Of a stretch of 64,000 bases of DNA, positions 14,507-48,064 are shown piece by piece (the first letter of the stretch is position 1; the number at the start of each line of letters is the position of its first letter). The notes below the pieces were generated by a model. It was given only the letters and a program-made list of their open reading frames with translations, ran no database searches and was not told the DNA's origin. The position numbers and the translations under genes are program-made. Origin of the DNA: Mesorhizobium sp. YIM 152430 (GTDB lineage Bacteria; Pseudomonadota; Alphaproteobacteria; Rhizobiales; Rhizobiaceae); the NCBI RefSeq assembly GCF_029210365.1, contig NZ_JARGES010000015.1, positions 186,001 through 250,000 of the forward strand, read 5' to 3'.

Positions 14507-14667
14507 ACAGGCGGCGCGCGCCGTCCACAACCCGCATTTTCGGGGTTACGTTCGCGCGCGCCTTTCCCTATAAGGCGCCCTTAGCCTGACATATGAAATC
14601 CTTCCGCCGCACCGGTCGCCCCGCGCGCCCGGCCTTCGCGGCAGAACGCGCGCGAGACGGACGCTCC

Positions 14668-18147
<3,480 letters not shown>

Positions 18148-18190: not shown

Positions 18191-18389
18191 CCGAAGGACG
18201 GGCCGAGACCTGTGCTCGGGCCAGGGCGTCCGGCAGGACAGAGGGGGGCGCTGTCCCGCAAACCTATCCGCGCTAACGTATCGCGTCGGCTTCCGACGTG
18301 ATTTCAACCGTTCGACCGCATATATTTTGCTTTCCAAGTCGCGGACCGTCAGCTTAGCTCTCTGCTTATCTGAGGCGAAAGGTGAGGCT

Positions 18390-19223
18390 ATGACCGCTAT
18401 AGCCATTTGGCGCAACGATGAGGTCGAAGGAAACCCGTCGCTATGGGCTGCTGCCGATAGCAGAGTGTCCGGGGTGGACGGCAATCTGCTTATTGCCGAT
18501 GCAGTGAAAATCTTGTCGCTTCCGATCATTTGCCGACGGCCGGGACCGAACGGATTCTTCAGCGAGACCTATTTCGTTCACACGCTCGGTTACTGCTTCG
18601 CGGGCAGTACGCTTATGGGACAGAACGCCTATCTTGGCCTTGCGCCGCTACTCTCGAACCTAATATCGGCGACGTCATATATTCCCTCGATCGAGGACAT
18701 CACCCGCCAGATTTTGGCGTACCTGAAAGTTACTTTCGAGGACTACAGACCGATAGGGGCGCAACAATCGCTCTTTGAAGTGGCCGTGTTCGGCTATTGT
18801 CACAGGACGCAGCAGTTGGAGATTGTCCATTTCCGCCCCAAACTCGTTCAGAACGTCTACGAGGTAGGCATAGAAGCCCACCAGAATTTGCACGCCCACG
18901 ACTTCGTATACCTAGGGAACGACGGCGCAGCGCTTCGGGAAGAAATCAAGAACGCCTTTAACGGTGAAGCGATACCGGGCCGCCCTATTTCGCGCGCGCC
19001 GCGTTTTGTCATTCAAGACCTTATAGCAAGTAATGAAAGCCTTACGATCGGCGGCGATCTTCAACTCGCCATCGCCGACAGGTTCGGCTTTCGACCGTTC
19101 GCATTGGTAAGACCTTATGTCCTGGGGCAGCCTGCCGCCTACACTAGCTATCTTGGTCGTGAACTAACGGACGATTTGACAACCGTCGGCGAAGCGCGGA
19201 CGTCGCCTATGATGATCGTATAG
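18390..19223 (+). CDS. Orphan proteasome-beta/HslV-like (Ntn-hydrolase fold) protein, putative
   Basis: The 277-residue protein has no name I recognise, but its layout resembles proteasome beta-type Ntn hydrolases. After Met removal it begins with Thr (MTAIAIWRND), like HslV. It then has WAAADSRVSG, comparable to the Asp17 strand, and ADAVKILSL, comparable to Lys33, with the Asp and Lys 17 residues apart (16 in proteasomes). Later, YCFAGSTLMGQNAYLGL, FEVAVFGYCHRTQQLEIVHF and FVYLGNDGAALREEI follow the order of the remaining beta-subunit strands and helices. The ATG at 18390 has GGTGAGG upstream. GC content is visibly lower than that of carB, which suggests transfer. There is no HslU-like ATPase nearby. 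The fold is inference; the catalytic Thr is only predicted. Confidence 0.5.
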   Translation: MTAIAIWRNDEVEGNPSLWAAADSRVSGVDGNLLIADAVKILSLPIICRRPGPNGFFSETYFVHTLGYCFAGSTLMGQNAYLGLAPLLSNLISATSYIPSIEDITRQILAYLKVTFEDYRPIGAQQSLFEVAVFGYCHRTQQLEIVHFRPKLVQNVYEVGIEAHQNLHAHDFVYLGNDGAALREEIKNAFNGEAIPGRPISRAPRFVIQDLIASNESLTIGGDLQLAIADRFGFRPFALVRPYVLGQPAAYTSYLGRELTDDLTTVGEARTSPMMIV

Positions 19224-19377
19224 CGCCGCCGCATCCGTGAGATTTTGAGGCGAGGATTGCAAAGCATCCGGTTAGTATGGCTGCTTCTTCACATTGCCAT
19301 CCGAAAGTCGCCATTCCGCTTTCCTCCAATTTCGCCGCGTCGGATTTCCTGATCATACTGAACAAACGCCTCAACGC

Positions 19378-19405
19378 TTGCCGCAACCCGCTCACCTGCT
19401 ACACT
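19378..19405 (+). promoter_or_regulatory. Candidate promoter of the toxin-antitoxin pair
   Basis: TTGCCG (19378-19383) and TACACT (19400-19405), 16-base spacer. Transcription would begin at or next to the antitoxin ATG at 19412, and no ribosome-binding site is visible (only C residues precede the ATG), so the message may be leaderless. Confidence 0.45.
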
Positions 19406-19411
19406 CCCCCC

Positions 19412-19612
19412 ATGACCAAGCTGGAAAAGATCGAAGAGTCCGTCGCCGCCCTCTCCGACGCGGAGCTGAAGCGCTTTGCCGCCTGGTTTGCGGACTATCA
19501 GTGGGAGCGCTGGGACCAACAGCTTGAGCAGGACGTCGAAGCGGGCAAGCTGGACAATCTCGCCGATCAGGCGCTGGCCGACTTCGACGCCGGGCGCACC
19601 CGGTCCCTTTGA
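19412..19612 (+). CDS. Antitoxin of a type II toxin-antitoxin pair, putative
   Basis: The 66-residue acidic protein (MTKLEKIEESVAALSDAELK at the start, DQQLEQDVEAGKLDNLADQA later) is of the kind found directly upstream of RelE/ParE-type toxins: a helical N-terminal part and an acidic, probably unfolded C-terminal half that would wrap the toxin. No clear DNA-binding motif is seen, so autoregulation is uncertain. Its TGA overlaps the TTG start of the toxin gene by 4 bases, giving coupled translation. Identification rests mainly on the neighbour and composition. Confidence 0.7.
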   Translation: MTKLEKIEESVAALSDAELKRFAAWFADYQWERWDQQLEQDVEAGKLDNLADQALADFDAGRTRSL

Positions 19613-19863
19613 AGCATCACACCAACCCCGCCTTCTGGTCGCATTACGACCGGCTGGAACCCGAAATCCGGCGGTTGGCCGACAAGAATTTCGCATTGCT
19701 GAAGGCCGATCCGCTGCATCCATCGCTTCGCTTCAAGCGCGTCGGCCGCCTGTGGTCGGCGCGCGTCGGCCTCAACCATCGCGCGCTTTGCGTCAGGCGC
19801 GACGATGACTGCGTCTGGTTCTGGATCGGAACGCACGCCGAATATGACCGCCTGATCGGCTGA
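19609..19863 (+). CDS. RelE/ParE-superfamily toxin
   Basis: The 84-residue basic protein has the RelE/ParE fold pattern: helices in NPAFWSHYDRLEPEIRRLAD, then DPLHPSLRFKRVGRLWSARV, then HRALCVRRDDDCVWFWIGTH and the terminal HAEYDRLI. The LHPSL...WSARV...HRAL...HAEYD series is characteristic of a widespread ParE/HigB-like subgroup. Toxins of this superfamily are either ribosome-dependent mRNA nucleases or gyrase poisons; which one applies cannot be told here. It starts at TTG (19609), overlapping the antitoxin stop. A short element also found next to the methyltransferase at 46 kb follows the stop. Confidence 0.82.
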   Translation: MKHHTNPAFWSHYDRLEPEIRRLADKNFALLKADPLHPSLRFKRVGRLWSARVGLNHRALCVRRDDDCVWFWIGTHAEYDRLIG

Positions 19864-19867
19864 CGCC

Positions 19868-19923
19868 CACAAAAACTTATCCCCCCGCGGCCACCTCCAC
19901 GCGCCCTTGCCCTTGCGGCAACT
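19868..19923 (+). repeat. Short dispersed element, copy A (downstream of toxin)
   Basis: Contains in order CAAAAA, CTTATCCCC (19876-19884), GCCACCTCC (19890-19898) and CCTTGCGG (19911-19918). The same blocks occur in the same order on the minus strand at 46316-46382, just downstream of the methyltransferase gene. Some spacer bases differ, so this is an old or degenerate repeat. Confidence 0.5.
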
Positions 19924-46393: not shown

Positions 46394-48064
46394 TCAGAAA
46401 ACAAAACCCGCTTGCTTGTCCGACTTTTCCGCCGGTGCCTTTCTGAACGCGGTGGAATCAATAATCGGCAAGCGGGGGAATTCCCGAAAGCTCAAGAGCC
46501 CTTCGATCGTTAGAATTTGGATGCGCGGGAAGCGCTGCGTGCCAGTTCCCATGTCGATCTCGACAAAGCCCGCGGATGCGGCTTCCGCTACCATCTGCCG
46601 TGTGGGCGGATTGAGCGTTACGAAGAGGCCAATCAGAGCTTTCTCACGTCCGATCACGCTCTTGAGCTTATGAACCTGATCGACCGAAATCCCGCCACCC
46701 TTGACCTCCACGATGGCGCGATCGGTCTTGTTCTTGCCGGTACGCAGGAAAACAACGCCATCGATCCCGGTATCAGCACCCTTGCGTCCGCCTCGGAAGG
46801 GCTGAGCGTCGGGAACAAGTGCGATTGCCCATTTTTCGAACTCGTGCTTGTCGCGCGTTGCGAGATCGCGGGCGGCCTCGATGTCTTTTGGGACACCGAT
46901 TGTAACGAACTCGGCACCACGCCCAAACGCATCGCGCAGCCTTCGTTCAATGAGAGAAATCGCGAGATGAGTGACGTCGATGCCGATCCACTGACGGTCC
47001 AGTTTCTGCGCCGCATGAACGGTTGTGCCACAGCCGCAGAACGGATCGAGCACGATATCGCCGGGATTGGACGAAGCGGATATAATGCGTTCGAGAAGGG
47101 CGACGGGCTTTTGCGTGGGATAGCCGAGGCGTTCCTTCGCCATAGAATTTACGGGCGGGATGTCATCGATGACACTCTGAATTTGCTGTCCATCTTGGAT
47201 GTAGCGCTTGAGCTGTGGAAATCCCGGACTTCCTGGTCGTCCAGGCGTCCAATAGATAAAGTTCGCCTCATCGAGTGCGTCGAGTTTAGCGCCCGTTCCA
47301 GATAGATCATCAGCTCCTATCTCGATGAGAATAGCTTTTGGTATACCCCAATGGCGGCCAATCGGAGTGGGATCAAAGCCTCTCCATGGCTTTCCTGATT
47401 CGCCATTTCGCGTGCCCGAAGCGGTCAAATCAGACAGGCGGTAAGTTCCCCGCTCATCGCTAAATCTGTACTTCGTGCCTACGTAAGATTGATCGTAGGA
47501 CTGCAATGTACGGTTCCAGTTAAATGCATCCGATTTCGAGGAAAAAAGAACCACGTCGTGAACAGGCCCCCACCGGCGCGGATTGTTTGCTGAGCTTGTT
47601 CGCTTCCAAACAATCTCGTTGCGGAAGTTCCTCGCACCGAAAACAGCGTCAATAAGGATTTTCAGATAGTGGCTCGCGGTCGGATCGCAGTGAAGATAAA
47701 GGGAACCGGTGGGCTTTAGAACGCGATGAAGTTCAATCAATCGGATGGACATCATGGCGAGATAGGCCATCATGTCGTTCTCGCCCAAAAAGCCACGCAT
47801 CGCCTCTAGCATCCTCGCGGCGTCGGTATTTGTCCCCTTGAGCACCTGCCAATAGGAGTCTTCCGCCGCCTCCGACCAATGCCACGTATCGTCGAACGCT
47901 TCGATCTGCGCTTGGCTTTGAACGCCGTTCGGTGCTTTGAACAGTACGTTGTAACTGGCATTCGAATTAAAGGGAGGATCCAAGTAAATGAGATCAACGC
48001 TCTCATCGGCAATATGCTCGCGCAGCACGCCCAGATTATCCCCGTAGTAAAGCTTGTTCGTCAT
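46394..48064 (-). CDS. DNA N6-adenine methyltransferase with C-terminal restriction-nuclease-like domain
   Basis: The 556-residue protein has the beta-class amino-methyltransferase order: catalytic motif IV first (LIYLDPPFNS, about residues 25-34), then a target-recognition region, then the AdoMet motif I (IVLDPFCGCGTTVHAAQKLD, near residue 344). From about residue 425 it continues into a PD-(D/E)xK/Mrr-like region: RKGADTGIDGVVFLRTG and AIVEVKGGGISVDQVHKL, with the Asp of GIDG and the EVK pair that bind metal in nucleases. It thus fuses modification with a nuclease-type domain. GC is clearly lower than the flanks, so it was probably acquired. A divergent small gene and a palindrome lie upstream. 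Confidence 0.88.
   Translation of the reverse strand: MTNKLYYGDNLGVLREHIADESVDLIYLDPPFNSNASYNVLFKAPNGVQSQAQIEAFDDTWHWSEAAEDSYWQVLKGTNTDAARMLEAMRGFLGENDMMAYLAMMSIRLIELHRVLKPTGSLYLHCDPTASHYLKILIDAVFGARNFRNEIVWKRTSSANNPRRWGPVHDVVLFSSKSDAFNWNRTLQSYDQSYVGTKYRFSDERGTYRLSDLTASGTRNGESGKPWRGFDPTPIGRHWGIPKAILIEIGADDLSGTGAKLDALDEANFIYWTPGRPGSPGFPQLKRYIQDGQQIQSVIDDIPPVNSMAKERLGYPTQKPVALLERIISASSNPGDIVLDPFCGCGTTVHAAQKLDRQWIGIDVTHLAISLIERRLRDAFGRGAEFVTIGVPKDIEAARDLATRDKHEFEKWAIALVPDAQPFRGGRKGADTGIDGVVFLRTGKNKTDRAIVEVKGGGISVDQVHKLKSVIGREKALIGLFVTLNPPTRQMVAEAASAGFVEIDMGTGTQRFPRIQILTIEGLLSFREFPRLPIIDSTAFRKAPAEKSDKQAGFVF

Follow-up and report, generated by a model that had tools for sequence, protein, structure and literature searches.

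Mobile Single-Gene Cargo Encoding a Putative Proteasome-Like Threonine Hydrolase in Mesorhizobium sp. YIM 152430, With a Possible Role in Phage Defence

Introduction

What would a lone gene resembling those for proteasome beta subunits be doing beside carB in a Mesorhizobium genome? The question is raised by a reading frame in the window, by which we mean the whole stretch of 64,000 nt that was analysed (Mesorhizobium sp. YIM 152430, NZ_JARGES010000015.1, 186,001-250,000, forward strand). The original prediction took its product for an orphan proteasome/HslV-like protein of transferred origin, a reading that is, overall, partly supported. That the gene is mobile single-gene cargo for a Thr-Ntn, proteasome-like protein is well supported. 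The fullest explanation that we favour, a stand-alone threonine hydrolase that is perhaps anti-phage, falls somewhat short of an even chance.

The Gene and Its Surroundings

The gene and its neighbours occupy the following window positions:

14593-18147, carB, the upstream neighbour, named by eye
18380-18387, + strand, ribosome-binding-like AGGTGAGG, just 5' of the ATG
18390-19223, + strand, intact open reading frame of 277 aa plus stop, putative proteasome-like (Thr-Ntn) protein, product beginning MTAIAIW
19412-19863, + strand, antitoxin-like ORF (a position-based call) and ParE-like toxin, a downstream pair that is context and outside the proposed mechanism

A purine stretch resembling AGGTGAGG also precedes the ATG in relatives L001, L002, L003, and L007. 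The ParE-like toxin (19609-19860) matches PF24732 (E 1.6e-6), the antitoxin-like ORF before it has no family match, and an EF-G-like gene, named by eye, stands after the pair. No ATPase partner adjoins the gene, as had been predicted, the neighbours being carB and the ParE-like pair. The expected lower-GC pocket is also there, with a G+C content of 0.546 for the gene (0.628 at third positions) vs. 0.641 for the whole window; third-position values for carA, carB, and the EF-G-like gene are 0.857-0.887. A sigma-70 promoter and a terminator 3' of the gene were considered and then dropped. Elsewhere in the window, 46394-48064 on the - strand encodes what we take to be a 556-aa DNA methyltransferase-like protein, its C-terminal GIDG...VEVKGG presumably a restriction-nuclease-like stretch; this gene sits in the window's lowest-G+C kilobase (0.527).

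Conserved Residues and Active Site

The residues that would build a threonine active site, and the segments around them, map as follows:

18393-18395, + strand, codon of Thr2, the would-be N-terminal nucleophile once Met is removed, invariant in 11/11
18456-18458, + strand, codon of Asp23 (in AAADSRVSG), counterpart of proteasome Asp17, invariant in 11/11
18507-18509, + strand, codon of Lys40 (in DAVKIL), counterpart of proteasome Lys33, invariant in 11/11
18525-18587, + strand, extra residues between Lys40 and Gly72, placed approximately by spacing comparison
18603-18605, + strand, codon of Gly72 in FAGST, counterpart of oxyanion-hole Gly47, invariant in 11/11 and aligned to HslV FAGAT
19047-19064, + strand, IGG-x-x-Q motif (residues 220-225), common to the family and its sister family

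The MT start, the Asp, and the Lys 17 residues further on are all present in the reading frame as originally described. Conservation was assessed in alignment A2, comprising the window protein and ten relatives that are 20-81% identical to it. Left out were a Hyphomicrobium copy with frameshift and stops (L003), a two-piece Vibrio copy (L010, near L011), a partial sequence (L006), E. coli copies that closely resemble L008 or L019 (L014-L018, L020, and L021), the partial L024 and L025, and L036, which was found later and used in alignment A7 and an extended HslV comparison. Invariant across all 11 rows are T2, W7, W19, D23, K40, G72, G135, C137, G176, P204, G222, G256, and G267. The ordered Thr/Ser1, Asp17, Lys33, and Gly47 that mark the proteasome-like superfamily (PMC8665760) thus occur in every row. 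The original prediction had staked itself on Thr2 being conserved in homologs, and it is kept in 11/11 here and in 7/7 sister proteins; Asp and Lys, also named there, are equally invariant as D23 and K40. The Vibrio protein L011 is counted among the 11, and retains Thr2 only if an ATC codon is its start. ATC is an unusual start, but in L011 (7988-8006) a ribosome-binding-like AAAGGAG lies shortly 5' of that codon, and the start annotated in the record, 42 bases further on, would lose the catalytic Thr. Family homology begins at MT, so a propeptide is not apparent.

Selection has acted on the protein as well. The dN/dS of the window gene is 0.16 against L001, 0.25 against L002, and 0.23 against L007 (70-81% identical relatives), and saturated against a fourth relative, L013. 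The protein is kept under purifying selection across transfers, notwithstanding three broken copies: L003 (6001-6830, frameshift and stops), L010 (8001-8725, two pieces), and the sister sequence L069 (5001-5852, in-frame stop). Given the invariant T2, D23, K40, and G72 and a dN/dS of 0.16-0.25, the Thr-Asp-Lys pattern goes beyond chance. Catalysis via a Thr nucleophile is likely.

Spacing sets the family apart. From Thr to Asp there are 21 residues in the window protein vs. 16 (T10, D26) in the HslV that this genome also encodes. Between Lys and Gly the 11 members have 29-36 residues (32 in the window protein), which is 14-21 more than the 15 of that HslV and of 7/7 sister proteins; the Anbu encoded in the same genome has 18. 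By the description in PMC8665760, connectase, PMI-5, and PMI-6 have additional residues at this position too, and the window protein could be a connectase-like protein ligase, a selective transpeptidase with a covered active site. We consider this improbable, as 14-21 residues would seem few for a two-helix cover and there is no known substrate.

Relation to Proteasome and HslV

Direct searches gave the window protein no match in Pfam, NCBIfam, PADLOC, PHROGs, or PDB sequences. Among nine family members scanned, no proteasome model was matched (PF00227 absent in 9/9), stray and unrelated matches at E 0.02-0.19 being all that appeared, and neither the window protein nor these members matched an NCBIfam HslV model. 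The family profile likewise gave no proteasome match, whether in Pfam, NCBIfam, or the PDB chains. Membership of HslV itself was considered and dropped, there being no HslV model match and no HslU partner, with carB and the ParE-like pair as neighbours.

The relation emerges through remoter proteins. A search with the A2 profile led to two of these, L024 and L025, and once A2 was extended by them, its comparison with HslV reached 0.0011, the Asp, Lys, and Gly positions coinciding. L025 also belongs to a sister family, aligned as A6 (n = 7: L025, L065-L068, L070, and L071; L069 was excluded for its in-frame stop), of which two members come from genome sequences and five from Agrobacterium, Klebsiella, Rhodococcus, and Lactiplantibacillus plasmids. 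Aligned with hhalign, A2 and A6 match over 236 columns (probability 99.3, E 2.8e-20), and T2, D, K, G, and IGG..Q all line up. The sister family in turn leads to known proteins. PF00227 appears in 4/7 A6 members at E ≤1, the best at 9e-4 and all below the gathering score (L025, for example, reaches 19.4 bits vs. a cut-off of 22.4). Against PDB sequences, 17 of 18 A6 matches were HslV or proteasome beta, the best with E 0.0019 and the others at least 0.23. In 398 genomes the A6 profile matched 66, four of them strongly (one being an A6 row) and 62 weakly; an HslV gene was present in 25 of the 26 weak-match loci examined, and the weak matches in G000 and G037 coincide in coordinates with PF00227 matches. 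With hhalign, A6 vs. HslV gave 1.5e-6, and a joint A2+A6 profile scored 35.9 against HslV vs. at most 19.7 for 40 column-shuffled versions.

Taken alone, A2 was not significant against HslV (0.21, and 0.25 in another comparison). Against Anbu, whose profile is shallow, it gave 0.01 in an alignment of residues 96-152 that leaves out the active site. Both the HslV and the Anbu profile are of this shallow kind, built from relatives of the window genome, and with them HslV vs. Anbu, a true pair, was itself missed (0.49); absent Anbu matches therefore mean little. The profile relation by which the superfamily is delimited (PMC8665760) was found only via the sister family.

Two AlphaFold models, made with few input sequences, have a mean pLDDT of 36 and 41, and structure searches with these low-pLDDT models returned nothing above unrelated rows. 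The second (mean pLDDT 41) places strands at 3-9 and 17-23, helices at 75-89 and 101-118, strands at 129-137, 142-153, and 156-167, a helix at 179-191, and strands at 224-230 and 235-239, an order compatible with that of Ntn proteins. As the models are poor, the fold assignment comes from sequence. Might the protein then be unrelated to the proteasome and carry its Thr-Asp-Lys pattern by chance? The missing direct family match, the non-significant A2 comparison, and the lack of a confident fold model would all allow this, but the chain of profile matches keeps the active-site residues in register, and chance resemblance is very improbable. The same chain, running via the sister family, bears out the predicted proteasome/HslV-like Thr-nucleophile protein. 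It points to a divergent proteasome-like Ntn family, and the Ntn fold itself is very likely.

Movement as a Single Gene

The gene lies within one further feature:

18294-19320, block of about 1.03 kb that is 90% DNA-identical to Hyphomicrobium zavarzinii (L003), the apparent transfer unit

In the congeners G001 and G003 the DNA following carB resembles the window up to 18297 and then diverges, so the left edge of the block (18294) lies no more than 3 bases from that point. Divergence begins earlier in other congeners, at 18255 in G002 and 18148 in G004. G003 resembles the window again only from 19482, and the right block edge is therefore unmatched. After carB there is a 210-aa ORF in G003, a 250-aa ORF in G001, and a 491-aa ORF in G004, while the G002 stretch has no ORF above 140 aa. 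From the Hyphomicrobium block, the coincidence at the left edge, and the differing contents of the congeners, it seems that about 1.03 kb with one gene was gained at a variable site. The transfer first suspected from base composition is thus borne out by the Hyphomicrobium block and congener divergence as well as by composition. As an observation in its own right, the post-carB stretch (window 18256-19886; L076-L079) varies among five congeners and constitutes a small insertion hotspot.

Two candidates for additional parts were dropped. A transposon with visible ends was one, the repeats found being short and scattered. The other was a conserved partner gene: the candidate, a 200-aa protein whose start looks membrane-like, was seen just before the gene in the five opened E. 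coli prophage-type loci, L008 (6917-7519), L014 (1493-2095), and L016-L018, and not next to the other copies. It may possibly be a partner in that lineage only.

Distribution

Scanning of genome contigs gave three loci, in Aurantiacibacter suaedae (L001, 81% protein identity to the window protein), an alphaproteobacterial MAG (L002, 78%), and the Hyphomicrobium zavarzinii above, whose reading frame is broken. Whole-genome samples, which overlap and of which the relatives, class, phylum, and family samples each count the window's own genome, contain the gene in 2/61 relatives, 2/385 of the class, 2/398 of the phylum, and 4/247 of the family (two of these four matches being partial). A relative was found in 1/78 genomes from the class of G469, and the congener G004 has a 24%-identical one (L005) at another site. 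Among plasmids, 7 of 72,556 records carry a relative, five of the seven typed as conjugative. Identity is 70% for Ruegeria and 20-29% for E. coli, Acinetobacter, Vibrio, and Azoarcus; matches H4, H70, and H73 were left out of locus inspection.

The E. coli plasmid copy matches 42 of 5,426 E. coli genomes. Six of these matches span the whole gene at ≥99%, and 36 fall in a 60-80% band, where the alignment covers 28% of the gene among the matches listed. We opened six of the 42 records (H8, H11, H12, H14, H38, and H45) plus the plasmid of L008, and L019-L021, opened from the 60-80% band, have a full-length gene with 60% protein identity. Phage records lack the gene (0/50,697). Viral-contig scans were without a relative in six of eight cases, one other giving L014 and L015 and the last those two and L036. 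With such low counts in genomes, plasmids, and phages, the family is rare, with a patchy spread over several proteobacterial groups.

Genomic Contexts and Rival Roles

Relatives of the gene lie on several kinds of mobile DNA. In E. coli prophages the gene is positioned near integrase, invertase, or tail-fibre genes, in an ICE it directly follows the conjugative ATPase, and one copy is on an IncI2 plasmid. Such settings might suggest addiction or maintenance cargo, that is, a toxin-like hydrolase or a modifier of host proteins favouring its plasmid, ICE, or prophage (including by superinfection exclusion). The conjugative plasmids, the adjoining ICE ATPase, the prophage accessory positions, and the toxin-antitoxin-like genes beside the gene would all suit this, but the gene has no antitoxin-like companion and the shared block contains one gene, and we regard such a role as unlikely. 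In the G469 copy (L013, 1078-2170) the gene is followed by two toxin-antitoxin-like gene pairs, recognised by eye.

Other neighbours point toward defence. On the Vibrio plasmid of L011, PDC-M27ABC lies on one side of the gene and a CBASS cyclase plus Cap15-type effector on the other, with SLATT and reverse transcriptase genes further on. In L036, a prophage-like viral contig that is P2-like by eye, PDC-S59 adjoins the gene. We scanned 14 neighbours at five family loci with PADLOC (three at L007, two at L008, one at L009, seven at L011, and one at L036). Specific matches came from two of the five loci, L011 and L036, where loci and genes alike were hand-chosen and without a background control. 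The L009 neighbour is a reverse transcriptase with broad PADLOC matches, those at L008 gave one weak ZorB match (E 0.002), and 0/3 at L007 matched. Sister loci were represented by six hand-chosen neighbours at two loci: L066, carried by an Agrobacterium plasmid, has Gabija-like genes nearby, and L068, carried by a Klebsiella plasmid, has Leo dynamin-like genes nearby. By eye, the surroundings of L001, L002, L005, and L012 are ordinary genes.

These ordinary settings would also suit the same enzyme if it were an ATP-independent peptidase that serves protein quality control in general or protects against stress, plasmids and islands being mere vehicles. The invariant catalytic residues and the lack of a visible conserved partner agree with this, and PMC8665760 discusses ATP-independent clearance among the roles that such homologs might have. 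However, the rarity of the gene (2/385 class genomes, own included), its 80-90% DNA identity across distant hosts, and the two loci with immediate defence neighbours better fit conditional cargo, and the genome is already equipped with HslV and Anbu. Quality control is therefore rather unlikely.

Proposed Function

We propose instead that a methionine aminopeptidase would remove Met1 and expose Thr2 as the nucleophile. Asp23 and Lys40 would prepare its amino group, and Gly72 would form the oxyanion hole. The enzyme would cut a protein or, like connectase, join it again after the cut. The stretch added between Lys40 and Gly72 probably covers the active site and gives it selectivity, so that no ATPase unfoldase would be needed. 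The gene would act alone, travelling as one-gene cargo; that the protein works alone is probable. Most likely it would serve where phages or mobile elements clash with their hosts, as a small defence or exclusion enzyme acting unaided on one particular protein of the phage, the element, or the host.

A stand-alone defence enzyme may be the role given the single-gene mobility and the anti-virus genes that are sometimes adjacent. This is a reasoned guess, to which we would give slightly less than an even chance. Against it, PADLOC has no match for the protein itself, the phage records lack the gene, and the defence context is not general; we also found no literature tying these proteins to defence among open PMC articles, a set outside which preprints and most subscription papers fall. 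The most specific version is somewhat unlikely in its full detail. In it, single-gene defence would consist of an ATP-independent, substrate-selective Ntn hydrolase with a proteasome-type threonine nucleophile, which upon infection would cut or ligate a protein of the phage or the host. Plasmids, ICEs, and prophages would have carried it through the Proteobacteria, while its sister family extends to Actinomycetota and Bacillota. One proteasome-like family now has a context, as plasmid, ICE, and prophage cargo that is twice beside defence systems. If a lone proteasome-type threonine enzyme does take part in phage defence, the function of its homologs becomes directly testable.

Comparison With Known Systems

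The window genome has its own HslV (L026) and Anbu (L027) at separate sites. HslV (ClpQ) shares Thr, Asp, Lys, and Gly in the same order, and the sister profile aligns with it across the active-site half. It differs in being 182 aa long, with residues before Thr and a Lys-Gly spacing of 15, whereas the window protein has 277 aa, a spacing of 32, and Thr at position 2, and its gene has no HslU-like neighbour. Anbu (242 aa) likewise begins MT, followed by Asp and Lys, but has a Lys-Gly spacing of 18 and exceeds the PF00227 cut-off, which the window protein does not. The 20S proteasome beta subunit (PF00227) has the same order of Thr1, Asp17, Lys33, and Gly47 and is weakly recognised in 4/7 sister proteins, in contrast to its absence from 9/9 family members scanned. 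The unnamed, mostly plasmid-borne sister family of Proteobacteria, Rhodococcus, and Lactiplantibacillus shares the MT start, D-S-R, K, G, IGG..Q, and a similar length; unlike the window family, it is without the extra Lys-Gly residues (spacing 15, 7/7).

Fuchs, Alva and Lupas (2021) described 22 further proteasome-like families in prokaryotes and reported that genomic context gave no functional hint for these (PMC8665760). The original prediction saw no known family name for the protein, and no database match was found, but the family may be listed, uncharacterised, among these 22. As described in PMC8665760, connectase is a monomeric archaeal protein ligase in which an element at the S3/S4 site covers the active site and adds specificity; by description, the window family has its extra element at this same site. 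PMI-6 has an insertion there, like PMI-5, which occurs only in Proteobacteria (19 sequences in nr90) and has its insertion between S3 and S4, and GPH is mainly proteobacterial (PMC8665760). Compared by these descriptions, PMI-5 and GPH resemble the window family in host range and PMI-5 also in the insertion, and PMI-5 is the family of Fuchs et al. (2021) that fits the window protein best.
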